DNA of 64,000 nt from Tetradesmus obliquus (taxonomy: Eukaryota > Chlorophyta > Chlorophyceae > Sphaeropleales > Scenedesmaceae): assembly GCA_030272155.1 (NCBI GenBank), contig CP126196.1:3348001-3412000 (forward strand). The letters are read 5' to 3'. Every line of letters begins with the position of its first letter. Positions within the stretch are counted from its first letter, which is position 1. The translations under genes and the position numbers were made by a program. The notes below the pieces were generated by a model. That model was not told the DNA's origin and searched no databases. It saw only the letters and a list, made by a program, of their open reading frames with translations. Positions 22,342 to 27,602 of this stretch are shown in pieces.

Positions 22342-25300
22342 CTAATGCTTCACTGCATGCAGCATTAGCGCCTCTCCACTGTAAGATGGCACAAACACGC
22401 TGCTCCTGCCCACTCCCTGCCATCCTGCACTGCGCATGGCACTCTCCATCTTTGCAAAGTCCTGTTCAAACACGCGCATGTAAATTTCAACAATCTGAAT
22501 CAGCGCTGCCTGGGGGCGCATCAGCGCATGCAAAGCAGCATAGAACGCCTCACTGTGCAGCTTGCTTGCAGCCGCAAAAGTGAAGTCTGTGGAGTCGATG
22601 ATCACCACGTCATACCCTGCACAGTCCGTTGTGCTTTTTGAGCCATGGGGGCTGCCGCCGCCTTTGATGTGGCTGGATGGGGCAGCTATCTTGGAGCTGC
22701 CAGCAGTGTCAACAAGCAGCCGCCGCCCTTCCGCTGCTGCTGCAGGGTATTCAGTCGCTGCCGGTCCTGGTGCGTGAGGTGCGCTGCTGCTGTTAGATGC
22801 TTCGGTCCTCACCCCTGCATCGCTGCTGCACTGTGTAGCCTTCTGCAGTGCCCATTCGTACGCATCCTGATACTCCCAAGTGATGCGGGGATGCCTGAAG
22901 GGCGAGCCATGATGCATAATGTGCCGGAAATGCTGCTGCGTGACATCAGACACAGCCTTATCAAGCTCAACAGCCGTCACATGCTCAACATAATCGCCAT
23001 AGCAGCTGACAAGGTGGCCCGCAATCCAGCCATCACCACCACCAACTAGCAGCACTCGTGCCTTGCTCTTCTCAGATGCCCCAAGGCAACTCGGCATACC
23101 ACCAGCAGTGCTGGCAGTGCGTGCAGCACCGCCAGCTGCAGCAGCAGCTTGCATAATGTGATCAGGCGGCTGCAGCAGTGACTTGCGACAGGTCACGTGT
23201 CCCTCAATGGGCGATGATGCAGCAGGCACAGATGTGACTGGCGTAACAGACACTGGCAGCACATCTGCATCTGCTGCTGCAGCAGCAGCAGCGGCAGCAG
23301 GGCTGTTGCCTCTGGATTCCAAGTTTGTGCTTGCCGTCAGCCTGTCTGCTGCAGGGCCGCATCCGCGTACAGCTTGCAGCAGCTGCAGGGGGTGGCGGGC
23401 CATGTGGTCTGTGTAGCCATCTAGATCCTGGGAGCAGAACTGGATGGTGTCGTCCAGCATGAGACACCTGCCTAGCTGACCTGGAACCTCTATGACTGTG
23501 ATGGACTGGTAGCGGCTGGCGCTTGAGTGCAGGATTGGGACCTGCAGAGAGCAACAACGCAGTGGAAGAGGACAAGGGTTGCCTGCTGGCCTGGTGTATG
23601 CAGTGTGTGATGCTCAGCATCGTGCTTCAGTCCCTAAATGATGAGCTTGTGGAGAGCTGCAATGGAAGGATTGCATTGCGCTATGCTTCTGCTAATGTAA
23701 TGCACTTTACGGGCTGTGAACTTGACAAGTCAGCCACATACAATTGAGGTAGCCTTGGCGCAGGCATGCAGCTGTTGACGCACACAGCGCGTGTCCTGTT
23801 GGTGGGTCCATTGGTTTGAGTTCACATCGTGTGCAACTGCTCTTCTGCTCATGATAAGCCTCACACAGTGCTGCTGCTGCAGCTGCTTCTGCTGCTCCTT
23901 GCACATACTGGGGCCGCCGCCGCCACTTGCTGCTGCTGCTGCTGCTGCTGCAGCTGCCGACTCACCTGGTGCAACACCTGCCCCAAGCTTTCGCCGTCTT
24001 GGCCGTTGGCCATAAAAGTATGCAGCACCTGGCAGCAGTTGAAACCACAAAGTATTTTGATATAGCTGGTTGTGGCTGCTGTCCATGTTATCTGTGACAG
24101 CTGAACAGCACCCAGTGACAATGCTTTCCTGCTTGTAGCAGGCACACTGCCTGCTTGCACGCATAATCTCTGCACACGGTAACACACTGCTGCCTGCATG
24201 TTTTGCTGAGTGCCGCTGGAACGGCATCATCAACCAGCTACAGCATCAACTGCCGCTGCTGCTGCATACCTGCTTGCACAGCTGCAACACCTGCACCACT
24301 CGTACGCGCATCCTCCATCCTCCATGCATTGTCACCGCTGCAAATGCAACCCGAAATCCCACACCTGTTAACACTGCAGCCTCTTTCCTGCCTGCGCAGC
24401 CTCTTCAAGCTGCTGCCTCCCACCTTGCCTTTGCGCTGCTCATTTCTTTGATTTCCATCGAGCCGACTGGCAAACATTGCTAAGGAGCCAAAGACATTGT
24501 AAATCACTTGCTTTCTTGACAACTACTATGAGTACTATTTAATATACATGAGCCTACCTTGGCTTTGCGCTGCTCAGGAGAGAGCTTGTCCAGCTCCAAG
24601 CCTCCACGAGCCAGCTGCTGCCTTAGCACCAGCCCTGGCTGCAGCAGCTCGCGCAGGCCCTGCTCCATCACCTCAGGGTGGGCAGCTTTGCCGCACGTGA
24701 AGATGTCGAGCGCTGCATGAGGCGATGACAACACCGGGCAGCGATTTGGTCGTTACAGCTGTGTATGTGTGTTTGTGTTGAATTACAACAGGTGGGGCCC
24801 GGGCTCCGATTTCCTGCTGCAATGCTGTGTGAGGCATGCATGCATGCAGCTCACCGCAAGGTGTTAGATGACAGCAGAGCCGCCGCAGCTGACGGGGTGC
24901 AGCCTCGGTTGCTGCAGCTACTACCCTCTGCATGCAGTACAGTCAGAGGCCTGTATGGCGCAACCCGGCCATTTGTACACGTTGCCAGCCCACCTGCGTA
25001 GTGGTGCTCCGGCCAGGTGTGGAGGGACAGGTGTGACTCCGACAGCAGGAACACACACGTCACGCCTTGCGTACCGGCAAAGACGTGGCAGGAATGGCCT
25101 AGGTAGGTCATAGCGGACTGCTGGATGAGCACAGTGAGGGAGCGCTGCAGGGTGTCTATGTCTGTCAGGGGCGCGAAAAGGTGCTCGGGAATGTTGTAGT
25201 ACTCGAGGAGGGTGTGACGACCCATGGGGGCATGGGCAGCAGAGCTGCTGCTGCTGCTGCTGCTGCTGCTTGGTGGCTGGTGGGTTGCAGCGATGGCTGG

Positions 25301-26070
25301 TGGTGAAGCTGGCGCAATGTGCCGCACAGGCTGCTGCTGCTGTGGGTGTGCTGGCGAGGCTGCACCATGGATGACGGCTGACAGCAGCAACAGCAGGAGC
25401 AGAAAGAGGCAGCAGTAGCAGCAGCAGCAGTAGCAATGGGATGGCTGAGGCTTACTTGTCAAGGAGTGTAGTGGGATAATTGTCGAACATACAGCAGTGC
25501 GGCTACACCGCATCCATGGATGCAAACATGTTGCTGCTGTATTGGTCTTTACGCAGCAGGGCTGCTGGGTGTGCAAGTCTGCTGCATTGTTTTCTAGTGG
25601 CAGTGGCAATTCTACAGTATTCCTTGTTGCGCCCAGCAGTAGGTTGAGGGGTAGCACTGAAGCAGTACTTACAATGCCTCTTGCCAGTGGTTCAACTGCT
25701 GCTTGCAACGTGGAGCAGTGAGCAGCTTGCTGCACTGCTTGCAGTACCAAATGACGGTTGTACTGCGGACCAGGGCTGCTACATGCCGGCACATGTTTCT
25801 TCAGCAGTGAGTCATGCCTCTGCTGTGCCACATGCTGCCACATGTCTTCCACATGCCTAAGCCTCATGTCTGACATGTGAGTTCAACCGACAACCCTCCT
25901 TGCCAGCTGCCCACCCACGCACCAGTAAGCTTGCACCTGGAAGCGTGAAGTCCAGCCACATACGAAGCAGCACAGGCACAGGCGATGCACAGCGCGGCAA
26001 GCAGTAGCCCCTTCGCTGACTTTGGGCTAACGCTCCTCGTCTTTATAGTGCCAGACGGCGATGACCGCAT
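22342..26070 (-). CDS. S-adenosylmethionine decarboxylase (SpeD type) - spermidine synthase fusion
   Basis: Exons (reverse order): 25923-26070, 24994-25377, 24558-24712, 23966-24028, 22342-23541 (TAG); phases join to 649 residues. Start ATG 26070; residues 20-41 are hydrophobic (KGLLLAALCIACACAASYVA), a putative signal anchor. A Pro/Ser-rich linker leads to SpeD from about residue 102 (GRHTLLEYY). All three catalytic residues of the bacterial class stand at family spacing: pyruvoyl-forming Ser164 (SESHLSLHTWPE), His169 and Cys184 (LDIFTCG). Then comes an aminopropyltransferase: RYQSITVIE and LDDTIQF about 260-285, GGGDG about 417, VELD about 441, VVIIDSTD about 562. Two low-complexity inserts interrupt it. 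Expected chemistry: AdoMet to decarboxylated AdoMet, then aminopropyl transfer to putrescine or another amine. The exon 1/2 join is the least certain; the acceptor amine is unknown. Confidence 0.82.
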
Positions 26071-26877: not shown

Positions 26878-27179
26878 CGTGGTTTGGCCAATTTGACGCG
26901 TTTCAAACGCGTTTCAAAACGTTTCGTTTCGAAACGAGCTGAAACGCGCTTGTGACAGGGCAGTACTCATGGAGGATGTGTTATTAGGACATCCTGATGG
27001 ATTTGTCGTGGAAAGAACATACATGATTATTTACTGGCAGTGGCATAGCCACTCTGTGCAGTGAAGGGGTGTTACATAACTGTGTTATTGGTCTGCTGCG
27101 TTTGCATGCGTGCAGTGCAGCAATTAGCTGGGCTGATCGTTGGATTGAAGGTTTGTAAAACTCCCAGTACCAGGACTCC

Positions 27180-27602
27180 ACTCACACTGTGGTGGTAGCT
27201 GGCCGCAAGGGCCACCCGTTGGACCCTGTGGCGTGGTGGTGTTTGTATGTTGCGTTGGTGCCGGCTCCTCAGGAGGCCGCCGCGTTTGGTTACACTTCTG
27301 AGGGTGTGTACGTGCCCTTGGTGCACACTGAGTTTGTCACCTGGGTCAGCAGCAAGTATGCTGGGCATAGCTTCCGGCGGGGCGCTGCCACGTTCTCGTT
27401 CCTGGTCGGCCTGCCCGACCGGCTGGTGAAAGAGATGGGCGCTTGGCGCAGCCAGGTGTACCAGGTGTACATGGACCTGTCCCTCTCGCAAAAGCTGTCT
27501 GTGCACTCCACTTGGTTTGACGCCATGGCGGCTGGGCAGCTGGGCGGTGAGCTGGTTCCGCCATCGTGCACGTGGGAGTGTGTTGGTGCTTTGGGTGGTT
27601 GA
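27180..27602 (+). pseudogene. Tyrosine recombinase relic A (C-terminal catalytic part)
   Basis: The translation shows the C-terminal half of a tyrosine recombinase: GHPLDPVAWW, a HSFRRG box (His-x-x-Arg), a W-containing MGAWRS segment and a Tyr shortly after. The family is the eukaryotic tyrosine-recombinase elements (Crypton or DIRS kin). No reverse transcriptase is seen, so the class is undecided. It is a broken remnant within the hAT-like element and is a different subfamily from relic B. Confidence 0.7.

Follow-up and report, generated by a model that had tools for sequence, protein, structure and literature searches.

The 64,000-nucleotide window of the Tetradesmus obliquus genome studied here (G000:C6:3348001-3412000, on a contig of 6,224,436 bases; the genome analysed comprises 104.66 Mb in 17 contigs) carries at positions 22342-26070 a minus-strand gene that joins a class 1b S-adenosylmethionine (AdoMet) decarboxylase, SpeD (residues 101-214), to an aminopropyltransferase (APT, residues 251-649). 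As the initial annotation had proposed, the two halves lie in one spliced frame: five exons are joined through GT-AG introns into a single frame of 649 codons, and public gene models agree with the join. This is the first SpeD-APT fusion in green algae that we could find; its active-site residues are in place, and its sequence bears signs of a lumenal, membrane-anchored enzyme. That the gene is truly fused is highly likely on the sequence comparisons below, and on balance we favour a fused enzyme with two activities and a compartment-specific role. The gene is made up of the following parts.

25923..26070, minus strand: exon 1, inferred; start codon and signal-anchor-like N-terminus, a basic stretch followed by GLLLAALCIACACAASYVAGL
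24994..25377, minus strand: exon 2; Pro/Ser/Gln-rich stretch, then the first part of SpeD with the processing site Glu163-Ser164 and His169
24558..24712, minus strand: exon 3; the remainder of SpeD with the catalytic Cys184
23966..24028, minus strand: exon 4; a 21-residue linker, possibly optional, present in P0002 and P0018 and absent from P0006
22342..23541, minus strand: exon 5; holds the aminopropyltransferase domain and the stop codon
23074..23367, minus strand: insert 1 of the APT domain, covering exon-5 residues 59-156; a low-complexity stretch in which three cysteines are conserved (GCG, CR.SLL-like, CLG)
22624..22812, minus strand: insert 2 in the APT, between the conserved cysteines 488 and 557

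The join is found in three public models from two genera, namely P0002 (OEZ86_003988) and P0018 (OEZ85 gene set), both of T. obliquus, and P0006 of Scenedesmus sp. NREL 46B-D3. The junctions 24994/24712, 24558/24028 and 23966/23541, all three predicted in the initial annotation, match P0002 and P0018 at the protein level; P0006 matches the first of them and then passes directly from exon 3 to exon 5. Skipping exon 4 preserves the frame, two of the three residue differences between P0018 and the window fall inside it, and this exon may be optional. Passages of PMC7955037 describe the Scenedesmus annotation as the product of a Joint Genome Institute pipeline that weighs homology and transcriptome support. 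In further relatives, gene calls recover the exons of SpeD and of the APT separately, and in two of these relatives both calls come from contigs of equal size (18041 bases for P0004/P0028 and 5130 bases for P0019/P0025), which is strong indication, though not proof, that each pair shares one contig. Separate genes for the two halves were not seen in close relatives, and taken together these sequence comparisons make it very probable that the fusion is real and retained in relatives. A search with the full core, which scored only the 7990 candidates with the most words in common, gave 12 matches, eight of the algal kind and four distant fusions. Since the named matches come from T. obliquus and a Scenedesmus, the gene may, within the limits of that search, be confined to the Scenedesmaceae or their near kin.

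The exon boundaries find further support outside these models. The exon 2 acceptor is supported by P0024 (SAVIHGAA) and P0025 (TAIIHQG), both of which continue upstream of the same point; P0003-P0005 extend to the VPILHS acceptor, and P0022 runs through the intron located at the equivalent point of SpeD. Exon 1 is a weaker part of the model: its donor, GTGCGTG, is the sole copy in the 1 kb before exon 2 and is in phase with the ATG frame; the motif has a density of 0.094 per kb on the gene's strand of the window. In exon 5 the frame runs open from a stop further upstream, with no ATG before residue 28, which comes after the first two strands. The methionine at this residue is replaced by leucine in P0003, P0004, P0005 and P0008, while P0004 and P0008 have a methionine four residues earlier, likewise after the first two strands of the APT. 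A complete APT fold therefore requires an upstream exon.

The SpeD half is readily assigned. The core of 549 residues that begins at residue 101 reaches 88.9 bits against AdoMet_dc (PF02675, cut-off 25) and 88.5 bits against TIGR03330, the equivalog of the Bacillus subtilis-type AdoMet decarboxylase (AdoMetDC; cut-off 75.65), which places it in both. The motifs SESHLS, HTWPE and FTCG start at residues 162, 169 and 182, confirming the canonical spacing of Ser164, His169 and Cys184 noted earlier; these we take to be the pyruvoyl, processing and catalytic residues, respectively. They are shared by 117, 116 and 116 of the 117 other rows, partly owing to how the rows were found. A genome-wide PF02675 search pointed to two places, the fusion gene (58.5 bits, from one exon) and a weaker one on contig C7 (32.9 bits).

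The APT half is more diverged. It reaches 51.3 bits against Spermine_synth (PF01564, cut-off 22.9), and the family profile and the predicted fold both place it in this superfamily. The top Foldseek match is a Trypanosoma cruzi enzyme, with 17% identity and a root-mean-square deviation of 5.9 over the untrimmed model. The catalytic Asp pair, a Tyr and a Gln are invariant in a 7-row alignment (A2), and the GGGDG motif at residue 417 is nearly invariant in a 17-row alignment (A4); in this family the Tyr and Gln act as ligand residues. In insert 1, 57 of the 98 residues fall in segments with a predicted confidence (pLDDT) below 50, and the VTCRKSLL block averages 86; P0008 deviates around the cysteines of the insert 1 motifs. 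In insert 2 the pLDDT is below 50 over exon-5 residues 244-305. We consider it likely that both halves are active. Two reverse-order proteins, P0010 and P0012 (APT, then SpeD), have a DSTDF motif in common with the algal APT. In the 817-residue P0021 a DSTDF-type APT is joined to a flavin amine oxidase, possibly making it a make-and-oxidise polyamine enzyme.

The same genome encodes a plant-type AdoMetDC on contig C10, and the nuclear, spliced fusion described in the initial annotation thus stands in an alga that also has the plant enzyme. Contig C8 carries a canonical spermidine synthase and an ACL5/thermospermine-synthase-like gene, told apart by diagnostic motifs. Because separate plant-type AdoMetDC and spermidine synthase genes are present, the fusion is an extra route, and housekeeping synthesis of spermidine is unlikely to be its main role.

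Two features passed over in the initial annotation, the signal-anchor-like N-terminus and a set of conserved cysteines, bear on where this route operates. In the inferred exon 1 a hydrophobic stretch spans residues 21-41 (top 19-residue hydropathy 2.18) and is followed by the Pro/Ser/Gln-rich stretch. Across 8 algal rows (the same-species P0001 left out), each of the eight cysteines in exon 5 is unchanged in every row that covers it, against 124 of 345 scored positions; the chance of this would be 2.4e-4 if cysteines were ordinary positions, but cysteines as a class tend to be conserved. Of the eight, five are found inside or at the edges of the inserts, and the eight non-algal rows of the same alignment have Cys at few of these columns. 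In the SpeD half, all five algal SpeDs carry Cys146 and Cys157; of the 117 other SpeDs, only 2 have Cys at position 157, and 75 have Phe at position 146. This makes ten non-catalytic cysteines that the algal rows conserve and that non-algal rows seldom share. Together with the anchor-like N-terminus they point to disulfides and a lumenal site, and we put a location in the secretory lumen at somewhat under an even chance.

Taken together, these features suggest the following mode of action. A single chain would be anchored by its N-terminus in a membrane of the secretory pathway (endoplasmic reticulum or Golgi), with a stem and then the two enzymes in the lumen. The SpeD half would cleave itself at Glu163-Ser164, convert Ser164 to the pyruvoyl group and decarboxylate AdoMet, and the adjoining APT half would move the aminopropyl group from decarboxylated AdoMet onto an amine, perhaps repeatedly. 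The putative product would serve a compartment-specific use, for example as the polyamines reported in Scenedesmus cell walls, with the cytosol supplied by the separate plant-type AdoMetDC and spermidine synthase. The anchor, the lumenal site, the disulfides, the acceptor amine and the product are all inferred.

Several observations weigh against this reading. No counterpart of exon 1 was found in any relative compared, and the public models begin at MGRH or later. The four Trp residues of exon 5 are all invariant too, and cysteine conservation is no test of localisation. Passages of a review of plant sulfur transporters name AdoMet carriers for plastids and mitochondria and no Golgi AdoMet carrier (PMC4158793); the genome itself was not searched for one. 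As to the APT, the speE equivalog cut-offs are missed (TIGR00417, 52 of 249.55 bits; NF002010, 94.8 of 260), the usual C-terminal stretch is absent, and exon 5 has a weaker coding signature, its third-position GC of 0.57 (0.44 in insert 1) falling short of the 0.79 and 0.78 of exons 2 and 3. Finally, P0002, P0018 and P0006 each omit parts of the APT exon including GGGDG, at differing places, and real splicing is possible; at codon level, stretches of about 23466-22894 and 23478-22615 are missing from public models.

The likeliest alternative is a bifunctional spermidine or norspermidine synthase of the cytosol or chloroplast that resembles the bacterial fusions and plays no part in the secretory pathway; its N-terminus would be misassigned or a transit peptide. 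Fusions with this domain order are numerous in bacteria (40 of the best 80 of at least 592 genome-contig loci, which is not a frequency), Scenedesmus acutus is listed with 29.4% norspermidine in a table of PMC6356823, and the lack of exon 1 in relatives also fits. The ten conserved cysteines, the hydrophobic N-terminus and the existence of separate AdoMetDC and spermidine synthase genes argue the other way, and we regard this alternative as rather unlikely.

An APT half that is inactive as an aminopropyltransferase or often spliced out, leaving in effect another AdoMet decarboxylase, would accord with the omission of the GGGDG region from three public models, the low speE scores and the very long APT branch described below. 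The three excisions differ from one another, the catalytic Asp pair and Tyr are in place, and seven relatives (P0003, P0004, P0005, P0007, P0008, P0019 and P0020) conserve the GGGDG region at the protein level. On account of this conservation we take the omissions to be prediction errors, though they could be real isoforms, and consider an inactive or missing APT improbable. Because the models drop catalytic parts of the APT, this domain is hidden from their annotation, and PF02675 is the only domain listed for P0002, P0006 and P0018. That gene finders wrongly joined two tandem genes is very improbable, since the introns are phase-matched, the APT exon has no start codon ahead of its first strands, and the join recurs in models of two genera and, judged from equal contig sizes, in two more relatives.

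SpeD-APT fusions, proposed to be long-chain polyamine synthases, are known from diatoms (passages of PMC6356823, PMC12803844, PMC12029483 and PMC12533330); a passage of the last, a 2025 diatom paper, repeats the suggestion that such fusions are unique to diatoms. The T. obliquus gene is likened to them by description and not by sequence, none of the search matches being named as a diatom protein: both are algal and join SpeD to an APT, whereas T. obliquus is a green alga in which one such gene and no methyltransferase domain were found. Bacterial SpeD-APT fusions are also known, as is the animal spermine synthase, in which the AdoMetDC domain is dead (PMC12803844, PMC6356823, PMC12029483); the section of PMC12803844 on green, red and glaucophyte algae does not mention a fusion. 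The T. obliquus gene resembles the bacterial fusions in domain order and in its class 1b SpeD and differs from them in having introns, two large APT inserts, ten extra cysteines, an anchor-like exon (inferred) and no C-terminal APT tail. Unlike animal spermine synthase (SMS), whose AdoMetDC part has lost its function (PMC12803844), it keeps the catalytic residues and is not of the dead-domain type. The plant-type AdoMetDC (PF01536), spermidine synthase and ACL5-type genes serve the same pathway in the same genome; they are separate genes, and PF01536 is a different, larger decarboxylase family. Another green-algal polyamine-enzyme fusion, of AdoMetDC with ornithine decarboxylase in Micromonas, was reportedly described by Green et al. 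in 2011; it differs in partner enzyme and reaction. Michael is said to have reported, also in 2011, signal peptides for diatom AdoMetDC-APT fusions.

In the open-licence literature, judged largely by titles and abstract openings, we found no report of a green-algal SpeD-APT fusion and no paper combining S-adenosylmethionine decarboxylase with Tetradesmus obliquus. The idea of an unrecognised algal enzyme class thus has to be narrowed: the architecture is known from diatoms, and it is for green algae that none was found reported. If the green-algal case, with its active-site residues and lumenal hallmarks, is true, it would show that algae evolved or gained this architecture on more than one occasion. 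The gene would also offer a workable way to test where the polyamines bound to the wall are produced, and a second AdoMetDC-APT route makes a biotechnology alga a practical target for work on polyamines.

Pediastrum is a member of the same order. Its wall is said to be reinforced with silica (passage of PMC10598416), and putrescine, spermidine and spermine are reported in conjugated form from Scenedesmus walls (Burczyk et al., cited in a passage of PMC6356823), which makes a use of polyamines in the wall plausible. In the furthest-reaching version, which we regard as doubtful, scenedesmacean algae would have evolved, independently of diatoms, a membrane-anchored, disulfide-bonded one-chain polyamine synthase in the secretory pathway that makes long or unusual polyamines from AdoMet for the cell wall, possibly helping to deposit silica or algaenan, as in the walls of the related Pediastrum.

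The origin of the gene was approached through trees of each half. In the APT trees (86 rows, and a 44-row subset that drops the long-branched P0021 and thins the bacterial fusions to about one in three and the standalone rows to one in two) the five algal APTs stand alone on a long branch, the nearest outside row lying at 5.46 and 4.54 changes per column, respectively. Approximately unbiased (AU) tests rejected none of the groupings of the algal APTs with the alga's own spermidine synthase (p 0.471), its own thermospermine-synthase-like gene (p 0.217) or the fusion P0009 (p 0.557). The 44-row tree unites them with the two reverse-order APT-SpeD rows at a support of 85, a grouping that is not established. 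In the SpeD tree (124 rows, 115 columns, at most 25 viral rows) the closest rows outside the algae, at 2.3-2.9, are SpeDs that stand alone or come from viral contigs, together with one fused row, P0016, at 2.83, whose GGGDG stretch fails to align and looks frame-shifted. Of at least 595 confirmed viral-contig loci 80 were kept, and by profile none of these 80 carried the two domains within a single open reading frame. Because the APT half is too diverged to place, the old transfer plus fusion put forward in the initial annotation cannot be told from a local event: on these trees, the gene may have been transferred as a ready fusion, or a transferred SpeD may have been fused locally to a eukaryotic APT.

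The weaker PF02675 place on contig C7 (G000:C7:364002-364331; L015 4002-4331, minus strand) is a second, diverged SpeD-like exon, DESHATAHCFS...LLAVDVFTCG. It scores 33.2 bits against PF02675, above the cut-off, and 34.3 bits against TIGR03330, below the cut-off, and had no match in the phage collection. As a source of the SpeD half it was dropped (best identity 33%, end branch 7.3). The alga may hold three AdoMetDC-like genes. About 1.1 kb beyond the 5' end of the fusion gene, an open frame at 27159-27599 of the window (plus strand; HSFRRGAATF...GAWRSQVYQVYM) has no Pfam match and ends in what we take to be a tyrosine-recombinase-like motif.
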